A DNA stretch of 64,000 nucleotides from assembly GCA_022578605.1 (NCBI GenBank), contig MU394153.1, positions 30,634-94,633 of the forward strand, read 5' to 3'. This DNA is from Camillea tinctor (taxonomy: Eukaryota > Ascomycota > Sordariomycetes > Xylariales > Xylariaceae). The notes beneath the pieces were generated by a model. The model did no database searches, was not told the origin of the DNA, and saw nothing but the letters and a program-made list of their open reading frames with translations. The translations under genes and the position numbers were made by a program. Positions within the stretch are counted from its first letter, which is position 1, and the number at the start of each line of letters is the position of its first letter. Positions 2,641-46,986 of this stretch are shown here, piece after piece.

Positions 2641-2702
2641 TGTTGCGGACCATATAAGGGCCAATTGCCTAAAGGCAATTGGCACATGTCTTTTGCTTCA
2701 CA
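2641..2702 (+). mobile_element. Micro-LTR insertion, copy A (62 bp)
   Basis: It starts TGTTGCGGACCATATAAG and ends TTTTGCTTCACA. It is flanked by a perfect 5-bp duplication TTAGG (2636-2640 and 2703-2707). The centre is a palindrome, GCCAATTGCC / GGCAATTGGC. It aligns over its full length with copies at 2838, 28084, 31559, 43459 and 46330. TG...CA ends and a 5-bp target duplication are the marks of LTR-type integration, yet the length is far below ordinary LTRs. Confidence 0.8.
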
Positions 2703-2837
2703 TTAGGATATTGTGATAAGAAGGCGGTCTTATAGTTGCTTCCGTGCCCGCTGGGGATCCCTGCGACCTCGGTGGAATGGATACTAGTAAGGACATAAAG
2801 CTAACCGCCCGGCTATAGGCTGAAGTTAGTAGGATAC

Positions 2838-2902
2838 TGTCACGAACAAAGCATATTCTAATTGGCTTCTGACAATTAGCTCACATATATGGCACTGCAA
2901 CA
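2838..2902 (-). mobile_element. Micro-LTR insertion, copy F (65 bp), reverse orientation
   Basis: On the minus strand it reads TGTTGCAGTGCCATATATG ... GTTCGTGACA, matching the family consensus through the ATATA box and the GAGCTAATTGTC palindrome arm. It is flanked by a perfect 5-bp duplication GATAC (2833-2837 and 2903-2907). It lies 135 bp from copy A in the opposite orientation, with a different duplication, so it is an independent insertion. Confidence 0.75.
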
Positions 2903-3424
2903 GATACTAAGGTCCATCTAAGGATAAAAGGCATGTAGACATCAGTGGTAATGTTATTTATATCCACTCATGTTCGTCCCAAACCACCACCGGATAGGAG
3001 GTAGTCCAGTGTCTGCATAAATAGTATAAACTTTAATGTATAACTTCCAGGTTGCATAAACATATTCTTGCAGCCTAGTATGGGGTGCCATACGAGCTCC
3101 TATGTATACATATTGGAGCTCTTCTGAAATATTATATTTCATCTTATCCCTTCACTATAACCTCTTACTAATACTGAGCGATCTTCTAAACCCATTTTGA
3201 ATGCTATATCGTAGCTAAAATTCATTATGACAATACCTAGGTACATTTGTTACATGATACATATATAGCACTAGTATAACTATGATCGACATTATATTTG
3301 GTTTTAGATTGGATAGTATGTTACGAGATGGGTAGAAGGAACGGTCGTAACGTAGAAGTGAAAGCACAGGTCGAATCTACCGCTACCGAAGCAATAGTCA
3401 TTTTCACCAGGAATCGCTGCTATG

Positions 3425-4773
3425 TTACTTGGATGGGCCGTAGGTTGCTGCCCAAGCATCATATTCAGGGGCCATCATTAATTGCTGTAGGTTTCGCCTC
3501 CGTATACCTATATTGCCTCCATCGAAGATCGGCAACACCATCGCATTATTAAGTAACTCAGCAAATGGCTGGCTACTATCGTAAGCCGTGCTATATTTGT
3601 GAGTCAGCGTTATCCATTGCTCCCCTTTTCGACGAATACTCACATTCCAACCACATTAATCGCATCAGTGACTGCTTTCACAGCAGCATCACTGCAATAG
3701 ATCTTCGCTGCAAGTGCAAGCTCTCTACGAGCACCATAATCCCCTGGGCCAGCATTCAAAACATGAGCTGCCTTCCACGTCAAAGCACGGCAGGCTTCCG
3801 TTTGCATCTTTATCCCCGAGAGCAAATCAGCGACAGCTTGACGTTCAAGCAAAGGCATTACACCACGACGGTTATCGCCCTTCGCAAAAGCTAACGCAGC
3901 GTCGAAAGCGGCGCGCATAAGACCTACACTCATAGCGCCTACTAGCACAGCGCTACAGTCAAACGAGCCGTTGACAATAAGAGCGCCTTCTCCAGGTCCA
4001 CATAGAACGTTTTTCGCCGGCACCCGCACACTAGCATATTTGATATGAGGACCAGATACTGTTGTGTGACCCATAGTCTCTACTTGGCGGATGACCTGAA
4101 AAGCATCCGGACCATTACGGTCAAGGTCCTCTCGAGTCACAATTATAATCATTATCTTCTCCTTGGGGTCGGCATCGGGTGCTTGAGCAGGCGAGTCGGT
4201 GATATCGCGGCAAACCACGCACGCCAAGTCGGCACCCTTAAAATCCCAGCCCGCACTGTTAGTGGCCCAAATCTTTTCACCATTGATAATCCATTCATCG
4301 CCTTCTCTCCGTGCCGTCGTATTGAGCCCTATACCACCTTTCTCTAGCCAGTTTGCCACGCCTCCAGGCTCCCTAAAAACAAGAGAGGCGAGGGGGGCAC
4401 CCTTTCCAGATAGAAAAGGCTCCAAAAACGCTTTTGTTTCGGGTTTCTGACAGAGGTTGAACGGCGTGAGGCCTAAGCCCGTGGCAAATATTGTTAATGA
4501 CGCGGAAGGCTCAACTACGTAGCACTCTTCTACTAGTATAGCAGCCTCGACAAGGGAGCCTCCATTGCCACCGAAACTAGAAGCAATCTGCCCTTTGATC
4601 AAACCTCCCGCTACAGCGGCTTCGTAGATCGACCGGCTGGCTTTAAAGCGCTCATGTTGGGTAGGGTACATAGTATACATGGCTCGAGCGGGCTTAAGTA
4701 TCTTTTCCGCAAAAGATGCAGCCGCAGCCCGCGCGGCAGCTTCGGATGGACAAAGATGGAAGTCAATTGGCAT
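3425..4773 (-). CDS. Nitroalkane oxidase homologue (acyl-CoA dehydrogenase superfamily)
   Basis: A flavoenzyme expected to oxidise nitroalkanes to aldehydes or ketones with release of nitrite and H2O2. Predicted exons are 3644-4773 and 3425-3590. The 53-bp intron has GTGAGT, a CTGAC branch and ATAG, and splicing rejoins INVVG to TAYDSSQPF. The product is 431 residues, close to the roughly 440 of the Fusarium enzyme. FAD-domain blocks such as ANWLEKGGIGLNTTAR and GWDFKGADLACVVCR match nitroalkane oxidase rather than fatty-acid dehydrogenases. Where acyl-CoA dehydrogenases have a catalytic Glu, this protein has FDGGN with Asp400, corresponding to catalytic Asp402, and Arg407 to Arg409. I chose the start MPIDFHL; an ATG 78 nt upstream (4851) is open but adds an atypical extension. 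The family call is firm; the substrate is inferred. Confidence 0.85.
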
Positions 4774-4975
4774 GATATTTGATTTGTGTGTTCTGAATTG
4801 GTTTGGGGGGGTAGATATGAAGGAGAGACGATAAACATTCGATCCTCTCATGAGCCGAGTCGTTGCGATCCTTTTACTTTACGAGTAAGTGTGGTGTACA
4901 ATGAAGTCTGCTGACGCCATCACACCCATTCGAGTTAGAAGCCATGGGAAGCACATCACGAGTTACTGGTTCTTT

Positions 4976-5006
4976 CCCCCTCTTTCTTACCGTAAGAAAG
5001 AGGGGG
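4976..5006. promoter_or_regulatory. Perfect 15-bp-arm palindrome upstream of the nitroalkane oxidase gene
   Basis: The left arm at 4976-4990 (CCCCCTCTTTCTTAC) is the exact reverse complement of the right arm at 4992-5006, with one base between. It lies about 200 bp upstream of the predicted start at 4773. The core TTAC-C-GTAA resembles a half-site pair for a dimeric regulator. It could be an operator-like site or a cruciform; the role is inferred from position and symmetry only. Confidence 0.45.
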
Positions 5007-8000
5007 GGTTTGTAGAAGCGCAGATAACACCCCAAACCTAGTAAGGCATCTCGATTCTGGTCCAATAGAGATATTGTATTCTATCTCCTAATCAGAGTGT
5101 TACTCGCTTGGCGAAAATACATTATCTATTTCACATGCTCTTTTACTCGTGGTATTCAACATCTAGGATAATGATGCTAGCGGCTGAAATAATTATAGTT
5201 GTGTCAAACTCTTACTTGAAAGACGGTAATTTGATGATTAGAATACTGGTAAACCTTATTTGTCTAGTACGCCACTTACTCCAACCTATCAGTGACGGTT
5301 AGGGGGAGTCCCTAATAACTTACAAAAATATGTGCTTGTAGTCTAAATACGTAGTTATCACAATTCGTTCGGGCGACCAACTGAGCAAAGAGAAGTAAAC
5401 GCTTCACTTCACTTAATGAGTGAGTGGTCATTGTGCTCTAATTCTGTATTCACTATATGGTTACCACCTTGACCGGGACATAACAGTATTATCAGATACA
5501 TTTTTGACATGGCTTAATACCTAGTGTTGGAGGAGATCTTCTTGAATCTTGTATGCTCTTTTCGTTACTGGTTCCGCCACCTTCACATTCATAATTTCTC
5601 GTGTGGAGCCGAGTCAATCCTAGAAAACAGATGAAAGATTCTATCTGTTTGCAAATAAGTCAAGCTGCTCGGCATGATTACCATTGTAGCTAAGTTCCTC
5701 ACGCAAAAAAAAAAAAAGACTACATTTTCCTCTATCTGAAGCTCATATCGTGACAGTTATCACTGTGTCCTAGGCAACACTGCCTTTGTGAGAATCCCTT
5801 GGCAAGAGGACCTGGATGGATGAAGCGCCGGAAGAAGCCGTTGTTTTTGTCTCTATTAAATATCGTGAGATAAGTTCCTAGCTTGTTTCGAGGTAGAAAT
5901 GAAACCGTATTTATGGGTAGTAAATAGGTACCAGTTTGATCTTATATCGTTGGCTCGAGCTCAAGGTTTACGGCTTTTTTTTTTCAGCTGTGGACCATGG
6001 CAGGGCCTTGGCTCTCTTTATGGTCTGTTTCGCATCTTTAGTCATGAATCTACTGGTTCAATTAGTAGAGTTATTTCACTGAGAGAATATTTAAGAGGCT
6101 TAGCTTATATCTTATGTGGATCTTTTTATGTTATGCATTTTGACTAAATCAATGAACAGTAAGGAAGACTGAGCCTGGAAAAGACAATTGTTGGGTATAA
6201 ATTAGATATTTGTATTCAATATAGAAAATAGAATGCAAGTAATTGTCGCATGAATAAACTTGCATCTACCTATGCTAATGAAGGATGGATATATCGTGGG
6301 TAAGAGCGGACATCTCGGTATTAAGAAGGAAATTGATTTATAAGAAAACCCCTCCAGTTCGTCGAATGAAAGATGATCACCGAGATATCCGAGGAGGGTC
6401 GTGAGAAATCTAAGATTGTGGAAGGACCACCAACCTAACTGTGCTTTCCAAGGTAATTTTCTGTGGTTGATGAGAGCCGTAAATTATGAGAGATCGGAAC
6501 GAACCCGGTTTACCTAATGAACCCGGCAATCATTTTCATGAGACTGGCCGACTCGGAAGCAGACCTACAAGTACCGGGAAATCACGGCTCGGCATCATGT
6601 AAGAAGTGTAATGAGCTCTAATGGGAAAATAAGAAAAGGTGGACTGGTAGACTCCTACAAGCACAATGCATCTATCTGGAACGCTACGCGTCGTCATTCG
6701 CCAAGTAACTTTATTATATAGTGGAGAAGCTTTATATGGATATATTATCGAATCTTCAATAGGTATAATTGTAGAGCCCATTGATCTTTTTGGAGGTTGG
6801 TATGCATCTTTCAATTCATTTTATTCTTCATTATGATCATGGCCTACATAGTTCTAGTGACTTAAAGCAGTTTCTATTTATAACAATAAGTCATTAGAGG
6901 CAGTGAGTATAGATCACTATAATAGGTGCCACCTCCCAGATGATACGACTATGGGCAGATTATGACAACGAGATATTCAACTCCCGGTCTCCATTCAACG
7001 GAAAAATACAAAAGTATTACGTATCACCCTTGAATTCTGTACAACTGTAGTATATCTTCATCTGCCTAGTTCCACTTAATCTGCCATCCAAAATTGGCAC
7101 ATATGCTCGTGCGCTGGTTTAAACTAGAGGTAACTAGACCCTTAATTACATTATCATCGTTGACGACACGAGGTGATTACCAACAATGACATACATCGAC
7201 TGGGAACAGCATACTCGGTGGCTAAGCAGTAGATCAAACCATCACATCTTGATGAATGGGTCGTCGACGCTGACATGATTAGCCAATTGACGTTGACGTC
7301 GACTTCTTGGGCTGTGTCTAAACTGAAACGAGTTTATCGGGCACAGGCGCCTTGGTAGGAAAAACCAACAATCATCATGACAGAATCTTGTGTTCACTGA
7401 CACTGGTGTATCAATCATTTATTCCATTTTACTATGCAGCCTGGAATGGAAGGATTCTTTGAATAGTGCGCTACCAGTTAAATCTACTCGTATCTATATT
7501 TACTTGACTGCACTATAATGTTCATGCTCATAACTGGGTTTGTCGTAACTTTTACCTGTTCTAGAACCATGAGCATATTCGTCGTGACCCCTTATTAGTC
7601 ACTGTTTATACTCAGGGGTAACTCTTGGACGTTAAAGCAGGGGCATGACACTTCCCTGATGGGCTGACGGAAAGGGGTTTGGCTTGTAGCCGACTTTGTG
7701 TTGGAATAATTCCGCCTTGGCAGGTTTGAGTATACCGGATTGGGTAAACCAGAATACAAAAGTGAACGCCTCATGGTGGTACTTGCGCTTTCACTTTCAC
7801 TATTTTCTTTTACCTTCCCTTCAGGTTTAAAAAACAATGAAATAGAAAAAAAAAAGTAAGACACAGAGAGATGGTTAATCGAGGAATAATCCCACTTATA
7901 CTATATCTCAATGGTGCACGTAGCTAGGTAGTCATGTATAGACTAAGTGCATCTTTTTAGTGTATGTAGGTAGGCAAGTAGATAACCTAAATATGTACAT

Positions 8001-9363
8001 AGTAGTCCCCGTGTTAGTTTAGCTCCCAAGTCCACAAAGCAAGGTTGCTTTCGTTTTCGGTTGAAAACATCCTAGAGCATTAGGTAGCAACTCAGTGCGG
8101 CACCACAGCCGCAAGTCCCATTTAAAGCCCCGTAATTCACTGGAATCTCCAAGCTTAGAAGCACGTGCGTGTGTGGAATATCTACGGATCAGCTGATAAT
8201 CAATCCAGCCATCAAGGGAACCAACAATACCCTACCCACTAACCCCGCGTATAGGTACCGTTACATGCCGCCCACCCGGGTTTTCTCAGGGCAAAAAAAA
8301 ATAAAGTTGGACCTAGATGTAGTGCCAAGCTTTTTACTTGCATCACAATACTCAGGGATATAAAACGTCCCAATCCTTGGGCTACCTAACCAAACCAACG
8401 GGTTCCGAGGCTGCCATGTTCAACGCTTGGGATATCCGAGGCCCAAGATATAGTATCGTAAGTGTAATGGCTGGGTAACTAGGTATTAACCTGTCTGTAT
8501 CTGGCGACAGCCAAGGAAAATCGCAATATCCCCGTGCGCAATTCTTCTTTCTCTCCATTCCTTTCCCCTTCCTCTTAGCGTTCGTAACCGGTTCATAACC
8601 ATTACCTATGTAATACTACTAGGTAGTAGCTTACCCTTGAGATCGCGGACTCGGGACGGATTGCCGAGCAGGTATCCTGAAATAGAGTTAGCGTATACCG
8701 ACCTGGTTGTCTAATTTGAAACGCATTGAGACAAGTCTCAATACCAAATGTTTTATCTGAAAATGTAGCCCTGAGCGGCTTCAAGCCAGCAGAGATACCT
8801 TTGCCGGTTGTAACATGACATTCCCGGGGTTAGTAGGAAGTCTGCTAAGACCCCGGTCGTTACACCTAACCTGGAAAGTAAACCACCTTGTAGGGCAGAC
8901 CCTGTAACATCGGACAAAGAAAACATATTAAGTTTACCTTGCTATTAGGGGTTGGCCTGTAATCGGACTCCGAATATACCAGCTTTTTACCAACCTTTTA
9001 CTTGGTACTTTCCATCTTAGGTACCTACTAATATACAATGTCTCCAAAGGGCTTGACAAATCACGATTCGAACTATAAGACGGCTTATAGGTCTTGGTTC
9101 GACTTGGATAATATATACCATTCTAAAGTATATTCAAGGACACTAATGAGATCTAGATACAGCATAGAACAAAATGTTACAAATTGCAAATTTTATACAT
9201 TGAAAAGCCATCATGTCGTATACATCCTTGATCCCAACTCCCCTTACCACCTCCTTAAACCCCTGTTGACCCCCCTTTCTCGCCCCCCCCCCCTAAACAC
9301 TATATTCCTTGTACATGATGGGTCCCCTCTCCCTCTCCTGGCAACAAATCTTGAGCAAGGAAT
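5007..9363. other. Gene-poor region, 4.4 kb
   Basis: Short frames occur but none shows a family signature, a plausible exon chain or a conserved motif. Homopolymers are present (A-run near 5705, T-run near 5977, C-run near 9283). I see no RNA gene and no insertion with a clear target duplication. Confidence 0.4.
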
Positions 9364-10074
9364 CTAAGAGTGCGAACCCTCTCCAATGCAGTACGGGATA
9401 GGGTAGGTGGTGCTGTTGCAGAGACGGATAACACCCTCAACCCAGGCAAGATTGCCGTAGTTCTGGCTGAAGTATGTGTCGCTTGTAAAGGCAGTCCTGG
9501 TGGGATCGTCGACGCATCCGCTAATGTAGTTGCCTTGAACACGGCGCACCTTAGGCTGGCTCACGACAACGCCAAATTGGCCGTCCGGTACCGTGTATGA
9601 GAATGTTTGTGATTCCTCGGTGGTCCAGGTCTCTGAGTACGATACAGACATAGATAAGGAGAGAATGTCTTCAATAATGCTAACGTCTACTCCCGCGGTG
9701 GCAGAGACACTGTTGCTGATGCTATAGCCACGGCCGATGGATACGGTAGCACTACCGCCCGCAGCAGAAACAACAGGCGAGATGGCAACATCCCAGTTCA
9801 AGAAGGACGTGTCGGAGGTGACCTGAATCTCCTTGGATTCATCGCATCGTCGGTTCTTCTGGGGAGACGAAGAACGAGCAGAGAGTTCAGGAACTGGCCC
9901 CTGGAGAAGATTGTCACGCTCCACAAGAGCAGCGTACTCAGTCTCCTTGATGATGGCAGAAGTGCCATCACCGCTGATAAGGACAACGTCATCGTAGCTG
10001 AGCTGAGTCGGCTTAGGAGCAGCGGACACAGAGCCGATGACGGCAGCGATCTGGGAGAGTTGGCGGAACAGCAT
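9364..10074 (-). CDS. Secreted celp0028-like protein (effector candidate)
   Basis: A 236-residue, intronless protein. It has an N-terminal secretion signal (MLFRQLSQIAAVIGSVSAAP, cleavage after Ala about residue 19) and then a short propeptide-like stretch. The mature part is rich in Ser, Thr and Val with blocks SYSETWTTEESQTFSY and VPDGQFGVVVSQP. Four cysteines lie in the mature region (RRCDES, SGCVDD, RLCNS, PYCIGE), enough for two disulfides. The overall pattern (DDVVLISGDGT, then a Cys, then FLNWD, GYSISNS and TWTT blocks) resembles fungal proteins annotated as celp0028 effector-like; that match is from memory and unverified. It is transcribed away from another secreted gene at 10988, sharing a 0.9 kb upstream region. 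The role is unknown; secretion is well supported. Confidence 0.75.
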   Translation of the reverse strand: MLFRQLSQIAAVIGSVSAAPKPTQLSYDDVVLISGDGTSAIIKETEYAALVERDNLLQGPVPELSARSSSPQKNRRCDESKEIQVTSDTSFLNWDVAISPVVSAAGGSATVSIGRGYSISNSVSATAGVDVSIIEDILSLSMSVSYSETWTTEESQTFSYTVPDGQFGVVVSQPKVRRVQGNYISGCVDDPTRTAFTSDTYFSQNYGNLAWVEGVIRLCNSTTYPIPYCIGEGSHS

Positions 10075-10987
10075 TTTGAAGAGGCTAATTTGATGTGTGA
10101 CCGGTCAAAAATGAGTGACTGATTTCAAATAATAAATGAGTGCGACAAGTTAAAAACAACTTGAGGATAATGAGTGAATCGATGGGAGGTCGAGGAGCGA
10201 ATGAGGAGTGGTGAGTGGTTGGTGTAGACTTCCAGAAAATATCATCACAACCGTGAGTCTTTATACAAATGGCTTCAAAGAGCACAGGCCCCCTGATGTT
10301 GACTGTCTAGCCGATGTCTTGCCTATTGTTTCCTCATCGGATGTCTCTGAGCTGAATAATCGGGCCCCTGCCGTCTGATGCTTCACGCATGGTGCCAAGA
10401 TGGGTCTTCCCAAGATGTTGGCATTCATGCGGGTAAGCAACCTGAGCTCAGCTAAGCCATCTATTAACCAATTAAACATCCATCCAAAGTATAAGATATC
10501 CATTCAACTATATACGGTGGGCCCTGTGTGTGAGGCGGTGCCCATGATGCATCTGGGGAAGAAAGTCACTTCCTGCTCTATATTACTTTATATACCTATG
10601 CAGACCTCGTGTTACCAGGGTTTCTAAGAAATGATAGATTAGAAGGGGTAGAAATGGATATCACTTGGCAATATACCGATATCTATTACTATTTTGGTCC
10701 CGAGTATAGTTGAGTTGGAGAATCTATAGTAGTTCATGGTATCGCAAATGTTGGGTATAAATGAGATCAACTCACAACATAAAATCAATTCTCTTCAACT
10801 ACTGATTCAGACATCCAGTCCTCTCAACAGACTTGTCACTCTTTGTTGTTCGAGTAGCCTTTCACTCACCCTAATCTATAGAACTATCTATATTCGTTCT
10901 TTTCCTCCATTTGGGATACCCTTCGTTCGTTTTAGTAATATCAACACCAAACCTTATTATTATTCCCTAGAAAACGCCGTCAACAAA
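10075..10987. promoter_or_regulatory. Shared upstream region of two divergent secreted-protein genes
   Basis: This 0.9 kb interval separates the start codons of the two secreted-protein genes (9364-10074 minus, 10988-11454 plus), so it must contain both promoters. A pyrimidine-rich stretch with TCTTTTCCTCC lies at about 10903-10919, 70-85 bp upstream of the plus-strand ATG. No conserved binding site could be assigned by eye. Confidence 0.4.
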
Positions 10988-14062: not shown

Positions 14063-14097
14063 GCTAGAGGTAGTTTCTTACCTTATGGTTTGTTTGA

Positions 14098-25192: not shown

Positions 25193-27325
25193 ATGGCAGG
25201 ATTCAAAAGCATCCCGGCGAAAATCTCGAATATTATCAATAAGCACAGAAACTCCAGAAATCTATGCGAGATTTGTAAAGGAGTTAATTTTGCAGATGAC
25301 CTAAAAGGTGGTCAACCGGCGCAAATCACGTACAAGTTCGGGACTCTAGGGGACATACGAAAGCGGTCATCCTCCTGTCCCCTTTGCGAACTGATACTAC
25401 AATGCATGTTAGATGATAGGATCCTCCACTGGCAACCAAAAGAGTATTATGAGACGCACGAGATTAGGGTAATCCAACAGTCCCAGCCAAATCAGAAGGG
25501 TCAAAGGAGACTGAGCTGTCAACCGCTGCCACTATCTTCCAGGCTTCTCGTTTCTTCCGACTTGAAAGGTTTCGACAGAATCATATCTGGGGAGCATATC
25601 GAGTTCAACTATATAAGCAACTGGTTGGATACTTGCCGGCATGAACATACAAAATGTTGGCACGAAGCTACTGCTAGCTCCAATGTGGACACTAGTTTCT
25701 TCCGCGCTATAGATGTGCATGAACTTTGCATCGTGTCTATTCCCATCACCTCGAAGTACATTGCCCTTAGCTATGTATGGGGCGGCGCCCCTCCTTACAA
25801 GTTGACGAAAGCCAATAAGGATGAACTTATGAGCCCATTTGGACTAAAGGCCCATTGGGAGGAAATACCACTGACTATTCGCGACTCAATAGACTTAGTA
25901 CGGGGTATAGGGCAGCGATATCTCTGGGTTGATTCAATATGTCTAACCCAGGATGACGGTGAAGATATGGGAAAGGGTATTATGGCCATGGACCTGGTTT
26001 ACGAGCAGTCATTCCTTGCTATCGTAGCAGCTGGGGGGATAGATGCTAACTCAGGGCTACCTGGAGTTAAACCGGGATCTCGCACTTCTTCAAACCAAAT
26101 CATGGCTGAAGTGCTGCCAGAAGTAAAGCTTGTGCTCCGGCACTCTGTGGATGATCTTCTTAGAGCGGCGCGTTATAATAGCCGAGGATGGACGTGAGTA
26201 CATAATATGTTATGATAACTCATCCCGAGCTTAAGTTGTTTGATCTAATCTGAATAAATTCCCAGGTTCCAAGAATATTATTTATCTAGGCGAAAATTAA
26301 TATTCATCAACGATACGGTGTATTTTAAGTGTCATGAGGGATATTGGCCTGAAGTTGAAGATGGGCTTGTCGTCCGGCCTGATGCCGTTGCCGAACAGGG
26401 GCAGGTCTTGCACAAACTGAACGGCGACGTTTTTCATTTGCTTGGTCAGCTTCTTGTTAAGTACTCAACAAGGAGTCTGACTAACCAAAATGATGCGGTA
26501 AATGCTATGCTTGGAGTCTGTCGGCGGATATCAGACTATGCGCAGTGCCCTCTACTTTTGGGCATCCCAGTAATTGCATTCGACTGGTTTATACTATTTT
26601 ACCCGAATATAGATGGAATGCAACGTCGAAGAGAGTTTCCGAGCTGGGCTTGGTCAGGCTGGGTAGGCGAATACTATTATAGCTCTGGGTCTGGAAATGT
26701 AGCTAAATGGCAGGCTACTTGTACTTGGATCATATGGTATAAAAGAGAGCCAAATGGGCGATCGAGCTTGGTACGCGCTGAAAATATGATGGTGGATGAT
26801 TCTGATAGCAACCGTGGGGCTTCAAGCAAAGAACTGTTCGAACAGCTGCGTGATCCATCGCGCGTCCAGCCATCACGATATTTGACGGTTGATAGCCGTC
26901 CTTACCCTATTCTACAGTTTTGGACTATCTCGGTCCATTATGCATTACGTCAAATCGACCGAGATAATGCAGATAAAATGATGTGGGCGTTTGGGATTTA
27001 CTGGACACAAGCAACATATGAGGTCCTGGGTCCGAACGGATCGAATTGCGGATTTGTATCTCTGGATAATGTGAATCGCGTGAAAGGAGCTTACGATAGC
27101 GTGGAGTTGATCGTTATCGCTGATTCTCCAGAGAAGGTCTGCCTACCAGGAGATGGGCAGAAGGCGCAGAGTCAGACGACTGACGTAGCTCGATTCTGCT
27201 GGGTTTTATTAATTGAATGGGAAGGGGAAGTTGCTGAACGAAAAGGTATAGGGAAGATCTATAGAAATGTCCTTACTTCAGAGATTAACCTTGGGGAGAA
27301 ATGGAAGGAAATCTGTCTTGCCTGA
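25193..27325 (+). CDS. HET-domain protein, apparently intact
   Basis: HET-domain proteins take part in recognition of non-self during hyphal fusion and can trigger cell death. Predicted exons are 25193-26193 and 26266-27325; the 72-bp intron (GTGAGT, CTAAT, CCCAG) rejoins SRGWT to FQEYY. The product is 686 residues. HET signature blocks are IALSYVWGG (190-198) and RYLWVDSICLTQDD (242-255), and the SRGWTFQE motif crosses the intron. The N-terminus has two C-x2-C pairs (CEIC, CPLC) typical of this family. The start has the favourable context ACAAAATGGC. The C-terminal half has no recognised domain. It lies 0.9 kb from the RIP-mutated element yet shows no RIP damage. It is the only one of three HET genes in the window without a visible break. 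Confidence 0.85.
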
Positions 27326-28083
27326 AATCAGTGGAGTTATTATGCAGTCAGTTTAGGATAGTTTATTATGCTAGAGTAGTCCAGATTCTGACATGTTAAT
27401 AACACACAGCTAGTCGTTGCGAATGAGTATCGGGAAACCATTATAGCATGAGACAAAGGTTTCCAAAATGACCAAGTGGTCATTGTGGCCCAATTCTGTA
27501 TTATATATCTAAAGCTTTACTCTACCGTTCTACGTTATTCGCTCTGTTCGGTGCATCTATATGAATATATCAATATATGGTGCAAGACGTTCTGTTTAAA
27601 TATTGTGTGTTCGATATCCCATTAGCGGCGAATAAAGCATCAAAAATGCTCTTAAAATTGACTACGAAGAATGAATAATTGCAATTTATAAGTTCATGTT
27701 AATTACCCAGATTTTAGAATTACGTGTGTGTAGATTCCTCAAAGGAGTGGTGCCGCAGCCATATAACATGATACAAGTGGATCATAAAATGATAGGCCTA
27801 TCATTGGTTGCTGTGCCCCCAATTAGCATACTGACCTAATCATTTGTATGCAGTAACCATGATGTCGTATATGAGTAGACTTATGTATGAATCATTTCCA
27901 ACTAGTTCTCTTGTAGATCCCCCTGCCACCATTTCTGTCTCCTCCACCTTAACCGAGGTTACCTAGGTAGGTCCTGTATCCGTGAATCCTCTCTATTTCT
28001 AGACTATATATGTATTTAAAAGTCGTGGTCTCGCTTATTTGATATAACCTACCTAGACATATTCTATTGAGGATATGTATTGA
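27326..28083. other. Intergenic region between HET gene and dehydrogenase gene
   Basis: No gene-like frame. A stretch around 27465-27510 (AGTGGTCATTGTGG, AATTCTGTATT) is also found at about 5421-5455, hinting at another short dispersed repeat, but no boundaries could be fixed. Confidence 0.35.
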
Positions 28084-28146
28084 TGTCACGGACTATATAT
28101 GAGCTAATAGTCAAAAAGCTATTAGCATTTGCTTTTTAGCTTTACA
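28084..28146 (+). mobile_element. Micro-LTR insertion, copy B (63 bp), next to a start codon
   Basis: It starts TGTCACGGACTATATATGAG and ends TTAGCTTTACA. It is flanked by a perfect 5-bp duplication ATTGA (28079-28083 and 28147-28151). The palindrome arms are GCTAATAG and CTATTAGC. The second duplication copy ends 12 bp before the ATG of the dehydrogenase gene at 28164, so the element occupies its core promoter or 5' leader. Confidence 0.8.
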
Positions 28147-28163
28147 ATTGAAAATTGGCCGAT

Positions 28164-31558: not shown

Positions 31559-31620
31559 TGTCACGGACTATATAAGACCCAATTGCCTTTGGGCAATTGG
31601 CATATGTCTTTTGCGCCACA
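31559..31620 (+). mobile_element. Micro-LTR insertion, copy C (62 bp)
   Basis: It starts TGTCACGGACTATATAAGAC and ends TTTTGCGCCACA, with palindrome CCCAATTGCC / GGGCAATTGG. The flanks are TTTTA (31554-31558) and TATTA (31621-31625), four of five matching. Alignment with copies A and E is nearly complete, including GGCATATGTCTTTTG. Confidence 0.7.
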
Positions 31621-38337: not shown

Positions 38338-38494
38338 GAAATGGTTTCAAGAAGGGTGTATTTAATAAAATTGTTAAAGGCCGTCTCTCGGTCATAAAAG
38401 GACCTAGACTTCATATAGAATAATTTGATTGGTCGTTACTGTGCTCTTTTGGTACTTAGAAAATATTCTTAAGCCCGTTCTTCTGCGAACTGCT

Positions 38495-38576
38495 GCTACT
38501 GGTAGGCCCCTTAGGGGCCTACTATGTCCCCTTCATAACATATACATCTTATGGCAACCTACGTAAAGTCAACAAT
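38495..38576 (+). repeat. Degenerate copy of the TGTTGAA LTR 3' part
   Basis: GGTAGGCCCCTTAGGGGCC followed by CATCTTATGGCAACCTACG and AAGTCAACA matches the second half of the solo LTRs at 31337 and 38203. The first half is unclear and no target duplication was found. It contains a long palindrome (GTAGGCCCC / GGGGCCTAC). Confidence 0.55.
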
Positions 38577-39647
38577 ATCTAGGCATAAATGTTATCCCGA
38601 CTGGTCCATGCGGAGATCCCGAGGTTCAATCGCTGGCAGAAAACCCCATGAAGAATCTGGAAGAATAAATAGTATCCCACAATACGTTAGTATAAACCCT
38701 GTATACATCATAGATCTGTTAGTATGATGGTTTCTGCGTATATCACAGATTATGCTAGGTTTTATTTAGCTGGCGCTAACTCTCAGTAGCTATATTAGAA
38801 TAAATAAAATGGTTCCATATTTCTATTATAATGACAGTTGTAGTTTTAATTATAAACTCCTCGCACAACAACATAGGCTTATCATGAAAATCGAATACTG
38901 CGTGAATCATAATATACTTCAGTTAGTTTCTGATCACTCAGTTGAGCGAGAAAACAATGTGAAACGGTACTGCTATGAGGACCTTAGCAATAAATGTGTA
39001 ACCACAAAAGTATTGAACCTCATAGTCCAGTAGCAGATACATAGAAAAAACTTTATCCTTACGGGTCTAATATGGCGTACAGTTATCCATCGATATGCAG
39101 CCCTTATTTTAATATAGTCACATACATATTCTCATCAGGTGATTACCACGCATCTCGCGTTGAATAGTCTCGGCACTACAGACGGATGACATGACGTAAG
39201 CTCTGAGGAAATAGAGATATTCCATGAGAGGCTACAGTATAGCTAGTACATAAATCCTTTCTGGTTGTTAGGTCCATAGGCATTCATTAGCAGGACCCCT
39301 CCACCCTCCCGGCTTAGGGTAGAAGAACGATGGCCAATTACCCATAATAGTTCCTAGATATCTATATCTAGAATGGCCTCCACATTCCGGGGTTGTCATG
39401 GAGAAGCCGACACAAAATTTCGGCATATACGCTGGTCAGCTGATGCATAACCTGTTTTGCCAATCGTAAGTAATGTAACATTAATACTAAGATAAATGAA
39501 GCCACTGACGATATTGGCTTTATTATAAATGATACCAACGCTCTCTTCGTTTCTTTTTTCTCCTTTCAGGCAATTATAATCTCTAAGACCTTCATGCTGG
39601 CTACTCCATAATATCTTATATCTGAAACTACATATCTCGCTGGCATC

Positions 39648-40133
39648 ATGTCCGTCAAGGTCGACGCGATCAAATTCTTGGATTACATACGCGCCTTCAA
39701 CAACCAAGATTACCCAAACCAGCACGAATTTTATCACGACGAAGTTGAATTATGTCTTCCAGATCCGACTGTTGGAACCTTGAAAGGCAAATCTGCTATC
39801 ACCAAGCATTACACAATGATCCACAATGACGCTGAAGAGGCCGTCATTCCTATAATTGTTCTCAGCGACCGTGGAAAAATATTTCTTTTGATGGAGACGT
39901 ACTTCAAATTCAAGAGAGAGATCGAACATTCAGTGCTTAATCACCATGTGTATCCAGGAGACGTTCTGAAGCTCACCTCCTGTGCAATATACGATATTAA
40001 CGATGAGGGCAAGATGCGCCGCATCACCTGTTACAAGGTTGAAGACAAAATCTTGGGGGATGTTAGCATGAAAGATGCCATAAAGGACAGCGAAACTCGG
40101 GCAGATCCAGATTTGAGACTTTTCAACTACTAA
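39648..40133 (+). CDS. SnoaL/NTF2-like small protein
   Basis: A 161-residue, intronless protein with the alpha+beta profile of the NTF2-like superfamily. It opens with a helix (KFLDYIRAFNNQDYPNQHEFYHDEVEL), then alternating strands with TLKGKSAITKHY, and a terminal sheet (KLTSCAIYDINDEGKMRRITCYK). In fungi such SnoaL-like proteins are often cyclases, hydratases or accessory proteins of natural-product pathways, but many have no known role and I cannot assign a reaction. It has no signal peptide. The ATG at 39648 is the first in frame. The stop codon TAA (40131-40133) is also the first three bases of the target duplication of a solo LTR, so the gene ends directly on an insertion. Confidence 0.75.
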   Translation: MSVKVDAIKFLDYIRAFNNQDYPNQHEFYHDEVELCLPDPTVGTLKGKSAITKHYTMIHNDAEEAVIPIIVLSDRGKIFLLMETYFKFKREIEHSVLNHHVYPGDVLKLTSCAIYDINDEGKMRRITCYKVEDKILGDVSMKDAIKDSETRADPDLRLFNY

Positions 40134-40135
40134 TG

Positions 40136-40322
40136 TGTCGCATATGAGAGCATTGTCATGGGTTTAGGTACACATGGGGGGACCTTGTGATCTTGGTATC
40201 TCCGATAGCAGAGCTCCTCTATTCTGTGTATACAAGGGAGCTCGTCTCCCCTCCGCTTTGCAGATCGATAGTTGAAGAATCAATCTCTTATGTGCCTCTA
40301 AACTGAACTCGTATATAAAATA
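40136..40322 (+). mobile_element. Solo LTR, TGTCGC...ATA family (187 bp), on a stop codon
   Basis: It runs TGTCGCATATGAGAGC ... GTATATAAAATA and is flanked by a perfect duplication TAATG (40131-40135 and 40323-40327). It aligns with 41411-41610 and with the reverse complement of 29478-29677 (shared AATCTCTTATGTGCCTC). It carries TGTATACAAGGGAGCTCG, equivalent to the TATA-plus-hairpin core of the other copies. The left duplication contains the SnoaL-like stop codon. Confidence 0.85.
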
Positions 40323-40327
40323 TAATG

Positions 40328-41237
40328 CTAATGGTCTATCAAAACGACAGTGTATTAGAGAGAAAGTATGTAGATTGTGAGGCATTCTGGAGTTGACGAG
40401 ATGGGTCCACAATACGGGCATCATATTTGATATTTACTATCTGACACCAAGATAGTAGCAGAATGATGAGTGGTCGTTTCCATTACTAATAGTATTCCAA
40501 TGGTGGTATAACGACTCGTTGTCTAGTTGCATTACTACCTAGGTATGTGGAACCAGAAATTCTAAAGAATTTTGGTCGGCAAATGCTAGTATCTATTGGG
40601 CTGCCAACTAAATAATATGAGATCTATAGCGGTCAGTGCTCGCTCTTAGAAAACTTGGCATAAAGCTTCTATATATAGAGCTTTTTTCTCCCATTCCTAA
40701 GAGTTTAGGATACAGGGCTATCTGGTCTACTTGTTCCCCTTATTATATTTCTAGCGGTCACTGATATTGTCCTTACGGACCATACAAGAATACGAACATA
40801 GATAAAGAAGTTTTTCTGTTAGCTGTTGGAACATAGGGTTATCATCTTGCTCTATAGTCTTATACTACCTACTGCGTACACGTATAATTGAATTCTTGCT
40901 TATTCACGAACTCTGCTGGATCGGTATGTTGAATTGTGGGTATAAGGTCGTTAGTTCAGTGTTCATCTGTCCCTAGATTATGAAACAATAGAAAGAATTG
41001 TATTTTATAGACTTGTAGCTGCAGAAATCCCTTATATCGATATATGAAATATTTTTTTTGATCACATGCTTTAGTATAACACTGGATAAACTTTGCCGTG
41101 ATTCCCACATTGGTATCATACCAATACTACAGGTATTAATATTAATCATTATAACATCACGCGTCAGCATCTGGCTGGGACCAATAAACAGAGTAACCTC
41201 GTAAGTACAATGTAGTGCCAATGTGGCCTCAAATATA
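40328..41237. other. Intergenic region between two solo LTRs
   Basis: Nothing gene-like was found between the solo LTR at 40136 and the ATP-grasp pseudogene. The two LTRs on either side carry different target duplications, so this is host sequence and not the interior of one element. Confidence 0.45.
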
Positions 41238-42793
41238 TTACTTGGGTTCCAGAGTTCGCAGAGTCCTCAAAGTGCTCGAGGTTGTTAGAATATTTCCCAC
41301 TAGCTTGGGGAAGTCCCACCCTAAAGCATTCGGAGCCATCAAGGTCAGACTCGCTTAGTTATCTCAGCCAGGCCGTCCAGGACCGGTCATGTTCTGTGAT
41401 ATTGCATATATGTCGCGTATGAGGGCATTCCCAGGAGCATAGGTACGCACATGGGGTGATCACGTGACCTAGAGATCATGGCACCCTGGAGCGTAAGCTC
41501 CACTATTTAGTGTATATAAGGGGGCTCGTCCCCCTTCTGCTTCGCAGATCTATAGTTTACAATTCAATCTCTTATGTGCCTCCAAACCATACACGTATAT
41601 AAAAGCGATAATATATGAAATGGGACGAAACGAGTAGAATAGGGAATATAGGAGGAGGTTATGACATACTGGTTTCATATTAACATAAAAAATCGCAAAG
41701 TCAGATGAAAATGAGTCTTCAAAACGGCGAATATCAATCTGAATTGGTGCTGTCGTGCCAAGGAATTCCGCTACTCTTTCGCACTCTCTCTTTTAGCTTT
41801 TGAATAAATCGGATCTCTCTCGTCGTCGGTAACAACTCTGGAGTTAGCCGTAACAGCCACGACTCTGTTGTACGGGGCTATGCCTTCTTGATGATTAAAA
41901 CGTGATACCACCGGGAGAGACATGTATCCGCTGTTCCCCATTGTTGGTGGCATGACGGTCACAGTTTCTTCTTCTCCTTTGAGAAATTCTTCAACCATAA
42001 CGACTCCTACTTCATCACGTAGTGCTCTTACATGGGCCAAAAGCTGCTCCGGAGAATAGCTAACCTTGACGCCATAGCTACCCTGGCCTCAGGCAGGCTT
42101 AGATACAACCGGGTAAGAAATGTCCTTAATTCAGCCAAAAGTTGTGGATGCTGAGATAGGCCATGATTGAAGTAGAGTGAAACAACCATCACTTCGCAAT
42201 ATATTGTTTACATAGTCCTTATCGTCGTATCTCTCAACAATCCGTGGCCCTTGACCAACCACATGCACTGTCTTGGAAGTCACCAATCGTCTCCGATGTC
42301 TGTAGGGGGTGCGATGTGAAAAGTATAGTATTTGCCCATATATGTGTAGCACCTTTGTTCAAAGCGTGCAGAATTCCTTCTTCAGTATCCGGGAAGGTCC
42401 ATCCATTTAATTCAGCAGGATTCGGCTCCTGAAAAGGGGTGAGGGCAGTAATACTCTTTATCTTGCACAAGTTAAAAGCGATTTCTGCTCCTGAATCTTG
42501 ATAGCCTATTGAGGTACGTAAGCTCAGTATGTTCAACATCGAACTTGATCGATGACGGCTGACCGACCTCCCGGTTTCCGAGGCTTTTTAGTGCCATTAA
42601 TAACGGGGGGTTGAAGCGCTTGATATAGGATAGCAGCATAAGCAATTAGCTGTAGAGTCGAATTAGAATACATTCTTGTAATATGTGTAATCAACGAGGG
42701 GGGTAATTTTTGTTTAGTTCGGGATGTTTCACGCAGCAGGTATCGACTAAACAACATGCTGAAATCAGTCCCCATGCAAGAGAAAAAAAGCAT
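41238..42793 (-). pseudogene. ATP-grasp ligase-like pseudogene with a solo LTR in its last intron
   Basis: Minus-strand remnant of a fungal ATP-grasp protein. Recognisable blocks in order: SIGYQDSGAEIAF, WTFPDTEEGILHALNKGA, TILFTSHPLQTS, VVGQGPRIVERYDDKDYVN, YPVVSKPA, GQGSYGVKVSY, MVEEFLKGEEETVTVMPPT, RFNHQEGIAPYN, IFYVNMKP, NMTGPGRPG and TLMAPNALGWDFPKLV. Frameshifts occur near 42280 and near 41775, with a frame change near 42540. In-frame stops of the kind made by C-to-T change sit before IKDISYP, after SKPA, and twice in the last exon (PG*DN*ASL). The last intron (41394-41669) holds the LTR at 41411-41610; subtracting LTR and duplication leaves 71 bp. The 5' limit is uncertain. The family call rests on the nucleotide-binding and NxN-type C-terminal blocks. 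Confidence 0.75.
41411..41610 (+). mobile_element. Solo LTR, TGTCGC...GCGATA family (200 bp), inside a pseudogene intron
   Basis: It runs TGTCGCGTATGAGGGC ... TATATAAAAGCGATA and is flanked by a perfect duplication ATATA (41406-41410 and 41611-41615). It contains GTATATAAGGGGGCTCG followed by TCCCCC, a TATA box with an immediate hairpin. It is antisense to the ATP-grasp pseudogene and lies wholly within its last intron. Confidence 0.85.
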
Positions 42794-43628
42794 TCATGGA
42801 AGAAGTGAATTATGAACTGATTATTCATCAAAAATATCAATTCAATATTCGAATCGCTCTGAGATGGCCCATATACGTTAGTGGTATATTGAGGGATTTG
42901 GATTTTTCCCTTTAGTCCAAAGCTTGAGGCTTTTTATAATAGCGCGGTCAGAAAAACTAAGCGCAAAGTAGATCTATCAATCAAACCATTACTCTAATCA
43001 TATACCTGTCAGGTAGTTAACTGCCTACTTTGAAGGCTCTACGTTATACCCTGAGGTCAATATCCGCGGAATATGTAATACATCAATCCCTCGATTTACC
43101 AGTCGCAACCAGCCTAGTACGAGTACTTCGTAAATATCAAAGATGGGTACCTGGCTACAAGCTGAATTTCTGATGGCGGTGGCCCCGGTGATTTCAATAC
43201 TGGATAGCGCAGAAGCCATCTCCACCCAGCTTCTGGCCGGTGATACCAACGTATAGTAAGCAACAGAGGCTGATGTGGTTGAAAAATGTCCCCAATAGGA
43301 GGTAAAGAAAATCCCTCCGTTCAATCCCTTATCATACACCACTATCCCGTCGTGAGCTTAGCTTCAAAATCACACCTTCAAGGTTTCTTACTCTTACTCT
43401 TCTCACGCCTCTTGTTGGCAGGTTGGGTAGGGTTTCCCCACATACCCACAATATTTCCTGCAGTGCCATATATATGAGCTAATTGTCAAAGGACAATCAG
43501 CATTTGCTTTTGTCTGCAACAGTACAAGCGTAGTTGACAGCAGGTCTATATTATTTACAGTATTGCTTGCATCCTTTAGAATTCTGGCATCTCTAAGCCT
43601 TTCATTCTCACAATATAATTATTTCTCA
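42794..43628. other. Intergenic region upstream of the second HET gene
   Basis: It contains micro-LTR copy D (43459-43521). A 105-codon minus frame at 43025-43342 has no recognisable motif and I do not call it. Confidence 0.4.
43459..43521 (+). mobile_element. Micro-LTR, degenerate copy D (63 bp)
   Basis: It contains GCCATATATATGAGCTAATTG, GACAATCAGCATTTGC and TTTTGTCTGCAACA, aligning with copies B, E and F. The 5' end is altered (TGCAGTGCC) and the flanks (TTTCC, GTACA) do not match, so the left boundary is uncertain. It lies 107 bp upstream of the HET gene ATG at 43629. Confidence 0.55.
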
Positions 43629-45870
43629 ATGGCCTTCGAATGCGACCCCTGTGCTAAGTTGTCAATCGGCCGCCTAGTCGAGCTAGCCAGGCTTGCTGAT
43701 CAGCAACTTGATAACTTGGAGTATAGCAGCCCAAAAAGGGGATACTATCAACACCATAGATGCCTGAAAGATCTGGAGCTGTCCGCCGAGAAGGGTTGCA
43801 ACTTCTGCCAGTTGATGTTAGAAAGCATCAAAAACTTTACCCAGTCAAGCGGTATCTACGCAACAAGCCCCGTACTGTGGAATGGCCCATCTTATTGTGC
43901 CGACGATTCTCTATATGCTCTAGCTAAAAGCTCACTGGAGTCAGACATCAAACTGTGCATCTGGGCTTCGCATGTTTTTGACTGGGACCCGCTTGATCTG
44001 GTTCGCGTTTTCGACCTCATTATCGTTCAGGTAGGTCCTACGGGGGACCCGATGTCTCTCCCTGGTGACGATGAATTTATAAGACCTATAGCATTTGTCT
44101 TGAAAACTAATCGAGGCATGTTGACTAACTACTCAGAACAAGTAAGGCCGCTAAGAAAATCGCAGACAAACCGATATATTTGGGGAATTACCGAATTGGG
44201 CGCTTTGACCTAGAACCTAATTTGAGCGCAGAAGGGAAATGTGCTATTGCTAAGGAATGGCTTGAATCTTGCCAGAAACAGCATTCGACGTGCCCCCAGA
44301 GACTTCTTCCCGTGCTTCCTACCAGGGTCATAGACGTTGCCCCAACTAAAGAGCTGCATGGTGCGGTTTTGGTAAATGCGCAAGGGCGAAAAGGCGAGTA
44401 TGTTGCGCTAAGCCATTGCTGGGGTGGCCCAATCACGCCAGTCCTAGATGCTACCACATTGGGGCATTTCCAGATAAATATCCCTTATGATGCACTGCCC
44501 TCGAATTTTCAAGATGCCATCACAATTACACGTGGGCTAGGCATCCGCTACTTGTGGATTGACTCGCTATGCATTTTGCAGGATTCGAAAGGGGACTGGG
44601 AGAGGGAGTCTAAGATGATGGGATTGATTTATAGAAACTCAACGGTTACAATTTATGGGTCTGCGTCACGAAAGAGCACAGACGGTATACTCAGGAATAA
44701 GCCGTTTTATCAAGGACCTCGTCCCCTTTATATGAGGATTGCTTCCGGACAGTCCCATCTCGATGGAGTCAAAATCAACATAAATATTACGAATGAAGAG
44801 AATCTTTCAATTCAGGCCCTTTGGCATCACGAGGATGGACACTTCAGGAGTCAGCTCTACCCCCACGCCAGATATTGTACGGCAATAGAGGGTTATTTTG
44901 GAAATGTCCACAGGGATTTCAATGCGCTGAAGGGTTACCGTCCGGAGGACCTCGCAATCCCACCGGGAAATACAGTGCTGTAACCTCTGCCCTACTTCAA
45001 GGCCTTCAGGTCGATATAGATTCACGCATCGATACAAAAACTACGCGCGACGATTACTACCGGCTCGTCATGATTTACTCCCGTCGGAGCCTGACCATGC
45101 GGGATGACAAGCTGCCGGCCTTCTCTGGGTTAGCGCAGAGCCTACACCCTACTTTCGGGGGCGAATACATTGCTGGGCTATGGACTGCCGACTTGAATCA
45201 TGGACTTACATGGCGCTCATTGCACTCTACTTGCCAACATATATCCACTTATCGAGCTCCTTCATGGTCTTGGGCTGTGACGGATGAAGAAGTTCTTTAC
45301 CCTTCACGTCCCTGTCGAATCAGCCCTTTGGACTTAAGGCTAATGGAGTTTGATATAAGAACTCGCGACCCTAGTAATCCTTACGGTGAAGTAACATATG
45401 GTGAACTCATCGTTAGTGGCCGCATTATTCGGCTAGTTAGGAGTTTCCAAACTATTGACATGCTCCCAAACGATGATTGCAGGGGCTCTGTGATGTACGA
45501 CGACGTCGAAATAGAAGGGCAGTCTATCGATGGAAATAGGCAAAGTCTATTCAGAGTCCTTAGCAGTGATAATAGTGAAGATGACTACCTCATATCAATT
45601 AGTAGTCCAGAGTATAACATAAAGAGCTGGAAAGTTGATTCTAACCTCACATCTTCTAAAGATTACCTCCTACTTCTAATCAACTTCGGGGGTCTAGAGG
45701 ATGACAACAAAGGGGACACATTATTTACTGCTGCAGACTTCTTAGCATTGGGTCTTTTGAAGAGTACAGATGGTGTCCCTACTTACGAGAGGGTAGGCTT
45801 TGCTTACCTCGATAATAAGAATACAGACTGGATACGCCGCTGGAAAACAGAGACACTCAGGCTTATATAA
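43629..45870 (+). pseudogene. HET-domain gene with a predicted GC-AG intron and one frameshift
   Basis: A HET-family incompatibility-type protein. Exon 1 (43629-44115) carries the Cys motifs CDPC and CNFC. A 50-bp intron 44116-44165 is needed to join KTNR to KPIYLGNYRIGR; it starts GCATGT and ends CGCAG, so it would be a GC-AG intron. The HET core is intact: YVALSHCWGG, RYLWIDSLCILQD, then SRGWTLQES. Near 44816-44821 one base is missing between the frame ending ENLSIQA and the frame of ASRGWTLQE. No intron explains this, so the frame stops at 44981-44983. After the shift the frame is open to 45870. With that break the protein would end after the core. It could be a sequencing error, so pseudogene status is probable and not certain. 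Confidence 0.7.
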
Positions 45871-46986
45871 TAGCCCTAGTGTTAGGAGAACAACCACGGT
45901 GATAAAATATTAGGCATTCTTGCCTATAGAACCTTTTTAACGGAATCTTCAAACCCGAGCCACATAATATCTTGAGATCAGGTGCCATTTACTACTCCAA
46001 CGACAATACAAAATGGGCAGCGCTAAGAAGAAACTTTGAGGGAGAGTTCGAAAACTGATATCCGAGAGTTGAGCGTGAAGGGTCACTGCCAAGTAAAAAG
46101 ACCATTTGTATATATCATATATATTTAGTCCTAGTTCTTTGCTCAACAAGAACAACTACGATTTCTCATATGGGAATCACACTGTGAAAGACTTCAAGAG
46201 CTCTAGAAACTGGGAAGCTTGAACATGGGGGAAATTTCTGTACCTATGCTATATTTCCTTATACTCATTTTTTCTAACCAATGCGGATATAGGTAGTCGC
46301 TGTGTGAGTCAAGGGGTTAGATGCGAGGGTGTTACGGACCATATAAGAGCTAATTGTCAAACGACAATTGGCATATGTCTTTTGTCTCCACAGAGGGAAA
46401 TTTGTAAGCTCGGTAAAGTAAGCCGTGAGGTTCTGAGCCACTTAATATGTTTGCCCTCTTTTTATGACTAGTAGAAACCAGCGTTTATAAGAATCGCTAT
46501 CATCCTCACTAACCAGAAATCGAATTTATTAAGAAACGATCGATGATGATGGTTCCGTTTACGTTGCAAGAGTGTATAGTGTAAATGCTGATGCTCTGGA
46601 GAGGAAGAAGGAAAGGATTCCTCTCTAGGCAAGCTACTGAATGCCAGCTAATACATGATAACTCTTAAGTGCTGGTCCCATGTGCACGTACCAGAAGTGT
46701 TGCCCTCATGTCAAAAATGGTCCCTCAGATGAAACTATGTCTCTGATTTCGGTTGGCCAATCCAATCACCCCAGAGATACTGGGATGAACACACGTTGCC
46801 CATATCCCACGTTTCAGCCATTTTTTTACCGTACGTTCCTTCACTATTCTGGTCAGATACGATACCTGCTATCACCAACAAGGGGTAGAAATGGTCATTT
46901 GAAGGGTGTGCGAGCTTGTAGTATGGGTGCTCAATGAGCCGTATTAAGGTGCCGGCGAGACGGGGTCCCTACGCGAACATATATCA
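45871..46986. other. Intergenic region with micro-LTR copy E
   Basis: Contains micro-LTR copy E at 46330-46392. An 85-codon plus frame at 46680 shows no family features. Confidence 0.4.
46330..46392 (+). mobile_element. Micro-LTR insertion, copy E (63 bp), best preserved
   Basis: It starts TGTTACGGACCATATAAGAG and ends TTTTGTCTCCACA. It is flanked by a perfect duplication GAGGG (46325-46329 and 46393-46397). The palindrome is CTAATTGTC / GACAATTGG. Its first eight bases TGTTACGG are identical to the start of the 400-bp LTR at 17499. Confidence 0.85.

Follow-up and report, generated by a model that had tools for sequence, protein, structure and literature searches.

Plant TRIMs and SMARTs, as excerpts of two accounts describe them, are non-coding elements with two tiny LTRs that are moved in trans (PMC4717578, PMC3281118). 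The excerpts record LTRs down to 52 bp, in CcaRetroS9, a TRIM of 233 bp with 10 complete copies (PMC4717578), and describe a SMART of 292 bp whose LTR bears a TATA motif (PMC4717578, PMC3281118). Among fungi, TRIMs are mentioned for Venturia and for Coniophora and its relatives, again in excerpted text. The closest known system is Helenus, a set of fungal TRIMs whose defining trait is an LTR that contains a tRNA-like sequence and which in most fungal families carry a half-tRNA primer-binding site (PBS) (PMC10886601). Of some Helenus families nothing survives but fragments and solo LTRs flanked by 5-bp duplications, which Kojima 2024 ascribed to LTR-LTR recombination (PMC10886601). A third relevant group is the fungal GalEa Copia elements of Pezizomycotina with their Conserved Hairpin Site, a hairpin that in the excerpted description follows the LTR and replaces the PBS (PMC5445492).

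The sequence-only reading of the window (the whole 64-kb stretch of DNA analysed here) had described six short insertions that align over their full length. All six were recovered, and the reversed window, used as a control, gave four matches, all at E 0.47. The copies are listed here as the solo LTRs that they very probably are:

2641..2702, + strand: solo LTR, group 1, 62 bp; target-site duplication TTAGG at 2636-2640 and 2703-2707
2838..2902, - strand: solo LTR, group 2, 65 bp; target-site duplication GATAC (+ strand) at 2833-2837 and 2903-2907
28084..28146, + strand: solo LTR, group 3, 63 bp; target-site duplication ATTGA at 28079-28083 and 28147-28151; same sequence as in the two LTRs of the complete element described below
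31559..31620, + strand: solo LTR, group 1, 62 bp; flanks TTTTA and TATTA, 4/5 matching
43456..43521, + strand: solo LTR, group 2, 66 bp as defined by alignment; flanks ATATT and GTACA, no target-site duplication; 5' end altered, TCC for TGT
46330..46392, + strand: solo LTR, group 1, 63 bp; target-site duplication GAGGG at 46325-46329 and 46393-46397

The duplications claimed for these copies were found at 5/5 letters at 2641, 2838, 28084 and 46330 and at 4/5 at 31559; there is none at the homologous ends of the copy first placed at 43459. The statement that every copy starts with TG likewise stands for the other window copies and not for this one, whose homologous end lies three bases further left. 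A complete element within the window was considered and rejected, because the nearest same-strand copies, 2869 and 3475 bp apart, belong to different groups.

Sequence searches of the window's own genome (44.7 Mb) located the family at 171 distinct places, which leaves about 160 single copies after subtraction of the two LTRs of one complete element and about eight chance matches. From these places 127 copies were read out, and the family statistics rest on these 127. They fall into four groups of 59-67 bp, with one deleted copy of 51 bp. Copy ends were fixed by alignment, ignoring the flanks, before duplications were scored, and the mixed alignment A1, in which the 5' end of group 2 is off by three columns, was excluded from the end statistics. 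Perfect 5-bp duplications flank 85 of the 127 copies and a further 24 match at four of five letters, so that 109 match at four or five. Randomly dealt right flanks gave a mean of 1.0 perfect 5-mers, and with the right flank displaced by -4 to +7 there were 0-2; the duplications noticed in the window thus hold across the genome far above chance. BLAST matches end at or near the element ends and do not continue into a larger repeat. Both results that the sequence-only reading had named as refuting it, chance-level flanks and embedding in one larger repeat, were thus absent. Among the 85 copies with perfect duplications, 84 start with TG, and the claim that all copies end in CA fails for the family as a whole (CA 63, TA 14, GA 7, AA 1).

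A single two-ended element was found, in locus L089 (C14:446515-446895, 381 bp), in which two identical 63-bp LTRs enclose 255 bp. GGAGA lies on both outer sides of the element and is absent from the inner LTR ends. Its primer site abuts the 5' LTR and complements the genome's initiator-type tRNA-Met along the 5' half of the tRNA, for which ARAGORN and Rfam confirmed four genes: 14/14 letters are complementary just 3' of the anticodon and 21/22 over a longer run. With two 3-base gaps the pairing reaches tRNA nucleotide 2 (score 43, against a top score of 29 among 2000 shuffles). A PPT-like stretch, CTTGGGGGGTG, recognised by sequence only in this one element, precedes the 3' LTR, and a G6 run adjoins that LTR. 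The internal part has Pol III-type A and B boxes, at 49 and 125, and Rfam at E up to 1 gave no match in L089. The longest stop-free stretch in six frames is 65 codons; the element codes for nothing long and would therefore have to move in trans. The genome search showed the internal part to be single-copy, and 11 single LTRs are identical to the LTRs of this element.

The complete element thus combines direct terminal repeats round a short interior, a PBS and a PPT with the absence of retrotransposon proteins, as in TRIMs. A TRIM criterion, as given in an excerpt of its source, asks for at least one complete element and one solo LTR with different target-site duplications (PMC4717578); here the complete element has GGAGA and the single LTRs identical to its own have other duplications, for example ATTGA. 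The suggestion that the insertions are solo LTRs of exceptionally small size, or else a miniature element that depends on mobilisation in trans, is therefore supported by the two-LTR copy. We conclude that the repeats of about 63 bp, almost all of them now solo, are very probably the LTRs of a TRIM-type family of non-autonomous LTR retrotransposons. Some observations sit less easily with the TRIM reading, namely that only one two-LTR copy was found, in one of the four groups, that the 3' ends vary (CA, TA, GA) and that three or fewer flank letters match in 18 of the 127 copies.

The sequence-only reading knew of no named fungal element of this form. That was only partly right: Helenus, a published fungal TRIM group, is of closely similar design (PMC10886601). 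Among the matches listed in the open-licence PubMed Central literature there was no account of the family itself. The element in L089 and Helenus are both short, non-coding two-LTR elements with a PPT, a 5-bp duplication, solo LTRs bearing duplications, a PBS whose complement is the anticodon part of tRNA-iMet, and Pol III-type boxes (PMC10886601). In contrast to the tRNA-like sequence in the Helenus LTR, a motif search of our LTRs found a B box in 0/127 copies and an A box in 1/127, and the boxes lie between the LTRs of the only complete copy. The family further differs in its hairpin LTR, in its CA, TA or GA 3' end and in the ratio of single copies, about 160, to complete elements, of which there is one; moreover, the fungi in Table 1 of Kojima 2024 are Basidiomycota (PMC10886601), whereas this host has HET-domain genes. 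From the excerpted plant TRIMs and SMARTs, which it resembles in general design, it differs in the dominance of single LTRs, the covarying LTR hairpin and the fungal host. With GalEa Copia, as excerpted, it has in common TGT...CA LTRs, the 5-bp duplication, a hairpin with a CTAATTAGT-like palindrome and a host among the Pezizomycotina (PMC5445492), but here the hairpin lies inside the LTR, a PBS is present, and the LTRs measure 59-67 bp against 138-311 bp with one outlier of 545 (PMC5445492). The kind of element is already known, and what is unusual is its size, its hairpin and its almost wholly one-ended state. The LTRs are close to the smallest in the compared literature, and the family extends half-tRNA-primed TRIMs to a fungus that its HET-domain genes place, by their indication, among the filamentous ascomycetes.

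Features of the four LTR groups are a T-run, a TATA motif and a 10-bp hairpin with compensated changes. The ATATA box noticed near the 5' end corresponds to a TATA motif in 125 of the 127 genome copies, and the central palindrome to a hairpin supported on 57 cores, with 93.2% of cells paired and 37 double changes, where shuffled data gave 13.9. Such compensated changes, together with the intron-like size, could suggest an introner-like element or a structured RNA family in which selection keeps the hairpin and transposition is incidental. We regard this as extremely improbable: of the 59 long-flanked copies, only 3 fall within a reading frame of at least 100 aa at the emptied site, against a frame cover of 20.5%; Rfam at gathering cut-offs gave no match within the window; and the hairpin mismatches (G-T 29, A-C 26) give no sign of one RNA strand mattering, leaving RNA-level selection on the hairpin unsupported. 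The copy ends are partly inverted repeats, and three copies (L014, w2641 and L040) fold back past the hairpin. Ginger-type elements have TGT...ACA ends and short duplications, and the copies could accordingly be imagined as MITEs, DNA transposon remnants whose inverted ends are imperfect and which an integrase-like (Ginger-type) transposase would move. This is very unlikely, since a Ginger-type MITE has inverted repeats without PBS or PPT and the two-LTR copy has a primer site and a G-run, and since the integrase-core search, which would miss a decayed transposase as it missed the copia integrases, scored two loci only, both chromodomain gypsy elements with LTRs.

These gypsy elements are candidate helpers of the TRIM-type family. 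The one at C26 (L072) has 264-bp LTRs that start TGTCACGGACC and end TAACA, with the 5-bp duplication ATCCA; that at C14 (L071/L149) has 379-bp LTRs that start TGTTACGACC and end TTACA, with the duplication TCTAG. The first 11 letters of the C26 LTR also begin 7 of the 127 short copies, and TGTYRCGGAC begins 62. The 5-bp duplications are alike too, but the gypsy LTRs are far longer than 59-67 bp, BLAST aligns the two kinds over 12-30-base stretches only, some of them within flanks, and the priming appears to differ: the C26 element looks self-primed, since two bases past its LTR a stretch of 9 bases matches that LTR. A 61-bp gypsy-LTR match at C2, considered as a possible intermediate, proved to open a longer gypsy-like LTR. 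The copia elements of this genome are ruined in a RIP-like manner: all 13 RVT_2 matches contain stops and the six that were excised have 11-16% GC. The sequence signals for a helper conflict, in that the primer type points to copia and the LTR start to gypsy. The TATA motif within the LTR would drive RNA synthesis; an autonomous LTR element would supply the enzymes that take up this RNA and reverse transcribe it, primed by a tRNA-Met half, and the integrase of the same element would insert the product. RIP is said to act on lengths from about 400 bp, and a size below this may be why the copies stay intact, unlike the copia copies in the genome.

In the usual view, the single LTRs would arise by deletion between both LTRs after insertion. 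If so, recombination through 63-bp repeats must be nearly complete, and 63 bp is short for recombination. An alternative is that most copies entered the genome already single: reverse transcription would yield a short LTR-only duplex with both integrase-recognised ends, which is itself integrated, so that the solo LTR is a product and not a scar. It would account for one two-LTR copy against about 160 single ones, for intact duplications and for the fact that none of the other copies read, 127 in all and from four groups, has a primer-site remnant next to it (best at most 8/14 within 7 bases). To our knowledge, however, no step leaves the U5 end clean and free of the primer site; repeats only 255 bp apart may often undergo slippage; and the Helenus solo LTRs with 5-bp duplications were ascribed to recombination (PMC10886601). 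We therefore consider direct insertion possible but rather unlikely. Its bolder form, a retrotransposon lineage spreading mainly as bare 60-bp LTRs that are inserted by a trans-acting integrase, tolerate non-CA 3' ends and stay below the RIP length limit, is a speculation that we doubt. With so short a unit, the family offers a clean test of two questions: what minimum direct-repeat length still suffices to reduce almost all insertions to solo LTRs, and whether direct integration of LTR-only DNA is possible.

The roughly 100 duplicated sites can also be used to read the target choice of the integrase. Targeting to tRNA genes was rejected, as ARAGORN, run on the window and on 59 loci, each about 3 kb long, placed tRNAs near one copy only. 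The target is weakly palindromic and A/T-centred, with a mirror correlation of 0.59 that was equalled in 3 of 2000 permutations and a central A or T at 97 of 109 sites.

All six repeats of about 63 bp that the sequence-only reading had described in the window exist and align end to end, whereas the reversed window yields only four matches, all at E 0.47. Of the 5-bp flanking duplications proposed for them, four are perfect and one is 4/5, but the sixth copy has none, and the TG start is absent from the homologous 5' end of the copy at position 43459. Across the 44.7-Mb, 154-contig genome that holds the window, merged BLAST and pattern matches gave at least 171 distinct repeat places on 68 contigs. 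The queries were three copies for BLAST (whose counts are lower bounds), two IUPAC patterns and later a two-LTR query. The first pattern gave 116 matches (100 of them among the matches listed) versus 8 when read backwards, and the second 35 versus 0. Copy statistics rest on the 127 copies read, a sample biased towards good matches because the best places were fetched first; the remaining places are known from match lines only. This set excludes L058, a locus at a contig end, and eight duplicate loci, and retains L129 (61% identity; probably a chance match) and the doubtful copies L037, L105 and L122. It comprises four groups of 43, 31, 42 and 11 copies.

The identity of the repeats is best seen in a complete element on contig C14, within the extracted locus L089 (C14:445950-447000).

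C14:446515-446895, minus strand: complete element with two identical group-3 LTRs
Internal part, position 49: Pol III-type A box
Internal part, position 125: Pol III-type B box

The two LTRs share one orientation and lie 318 bp apart; GGAGA precedes the first and succeeds the second, and the inner flanks are unlike. Directly adjoining the first LTR, GTTATGAGCCCGGC... is complementary to tRNA-Met up to linear nucleotide 38, C39 in standard numbering. A pattern search for the primer tRNA (18 matches versus 10 in the control) pointed to four genes, which ARAGORN identified as tRNA-Met and Rfam as tRNA and which are presumably of initiator type; a fifth matching stretch is no tRNA. The primer site matches tRNA-Met at 21/22 positions ungapped. 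For three of these genes, allowing two 3-base gaps carries the pairing on as far as nucleotide 2, the gapped match scoring 43 against a maximum of 29 in 2000 shuffles. A G6 run stands ahead of the second LTR. The LTR sequence of this element recurs without any change in 11 single copies, one of which is the copy at 28084 in the window. The two-LTR structure, with its primer site, G-run and LTR-identical single copies, thus identifies the repeats as LTRs.

The internal part occurs once in the genome searches, and the element has no long coding frame. Its A box followed by B box was matched in 0 of 20,000 letter shuffles, although the boxes were sought only once the sequence had been seen. ARAGORN and Rfam found no tRNA in the locus; the boxes may derive from the head of a tRNA or SINE that the element captured. 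The element's sole run of four or more T sits in the LTR. Among known systems, plant TRIMs have LTRs as short as 52 bp (PMC4717578), SMART is 292 bp long (PMC3281118), and fungal Helenus shows the same priming and duplications as our family (PMC10886601). That last paper names the 5' tRNA half as the primer used by copia, by Ty5 and by most Helenus families of fungi. Judged by sequence features, the family counts as a TRIM and falls outside the Helenus definition.

With copy ends defined by alignment of ten representative copies, flanks disregarded, the 5-bp duplication is perfect in 85 of the 127 copies, 4/5 in 24 and lower in 18, the last including both LTRs of the complete element. Randomly reassigned right flanks gave a mean of 1.0 perfect duplications, and right flanks offset by -4 to +7 gave 0-2. 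The duplication centre is A or T in 97/109 copies, with T at the third outside position on the left in 62/109 and A at the third on the right in 59/109. The mirror correlation is 0.59 versus 0.016 (sd 0.216) for permuted columns, with 3 of 2000 permutations as high; the target site is weakly palindromic, which fits a dimeric integrase or transposase. The 85 perfect-duplication copies end in CA (63), TA (14), GA (7) or AA (1), and TA ends all ten group-4 copies with 4-5/5 duplication (group size 11). Since a CA terminus is considered near-invariant for retroviral-type integrase, these other ends count against a strictly canonical retroviral-type reading.

All four groups carry a 10-bp hairpin; they also share a TATA motif (125/127 copies) and a run of T, which reads CTTTT in 118/127 copies and TTTT in 121/127. 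The hairpin was tested on 57 of 65 distinct cores (at least 84% identity, 4-5/5 duplication), eight of differing length or start being dropped. In these, 93.2% of cells are paired versus 16-44% in slid versions, and double changes (37 versus 13.9, sd 2.6) and covariation (0.247 versus 0.136) exceed shuffles, which kinship among sequences can also achieve without any structure. Pair count and pair-type count are not above shuffles (matched by 355/500 and 357/500), the mismatches (G-T 29, A-C 26) give no sign of preservation as RNA, and the energy-only fold of a group-3 copy differs from the hairpin. One 51-bp copy, L091, lacks a hairpin arm and has 4/5 flank letters duplicated; the hairpin may be dispensable for insertion, or the arm may have been lost afterwards.

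Nearly all copies are single. The only same-strand pair closer than 600 bp among the census places listed is that of the complete element, the next being 677 bp apart, and the primer site is absent beside all other copies read (best 8/14 letters versus 14/14). LTR-LTR deletion is the ordinary account, and Kojima describes Helenus families that lack full-length copies (PMC10886601). That account is strained by 63-bp repeats and by some 160 single copies per complete one, figures that favour direct insertion of LTR-only DNA, a route we nevertheless consider unlikely.

As candidate helpers, an integrase-core search scored two loci, one below the family cut-off, both chromodomain gypsy elements with frames of about 1200 codons. 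An RVT_1 (reverse transcriptase) search found both and three more, one adjoining an endonuclease domain. The gypsy direct repeats span 265 bp (C26) and 382 bp (C14), or 264 and 379 bp from TG to CA.

C26:33400-43399 (locus L072): gypsy LTR starting TGTCACGGACC, duplication ATCCA
C14 (loci L071/L149): gypsy LTR starting TGTTACGACC, duplication TCTAG

The opening 11 letters of the C26 LTR also begin 7/127 of the short copies. Nine bases from two bases past this LTR match the LTR itself, so that the element looks self-primed. Both gypsy elements have identical LTRs and long open frames, and their insertions are likely recent; the C26 LTR has at least 21 further genome match rows, full and partial. 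A copia helper would fit the primer type of the complete element. All 13 matches of a copia RVT_2 search contain stops, and six of these loci (L138-L143), cut out, have 11-16% GC versus 43% in the short-LTR loci, with abundant TAA stops, a combination that reads as a very strong RIP-like signature. RIP targets typically exceed 400 bp (PMC4522978), and the 381-bp complete element is shorter.

Only 3 of 59 long-flank copies lie inside a frame of at least 100 aa at the emptied site, versus 20.5% frame cover. Among the census places listed, 23 pairs lie within 6 kb versus 3.9 expected under uniform scatter, for example:

C49:187175 and 187379: close pair of copies
C103:33269 and 33481: close pair
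C132:8767 and 8941: close pair
C1:493682 and 494136: close pair

Below 1 kb, opposite-strand pairs outnumber same-strand pairs 9 to 1 (omitting the complete element's own LTR pair and counting its neighbour once), which suggests hot spots or an orientation preference. Two HET-domain (heterokaryon incompatibility) frames at 25193-26197 and 44180-44983 of the window presumably indicate a Pezizomycotina host. At locus L056, two tRNA-Ile genes, at 1262-1356 (95 bp) and 2451-2547 (97 bp), flank a copy at distances of about 145 and 890 bp.
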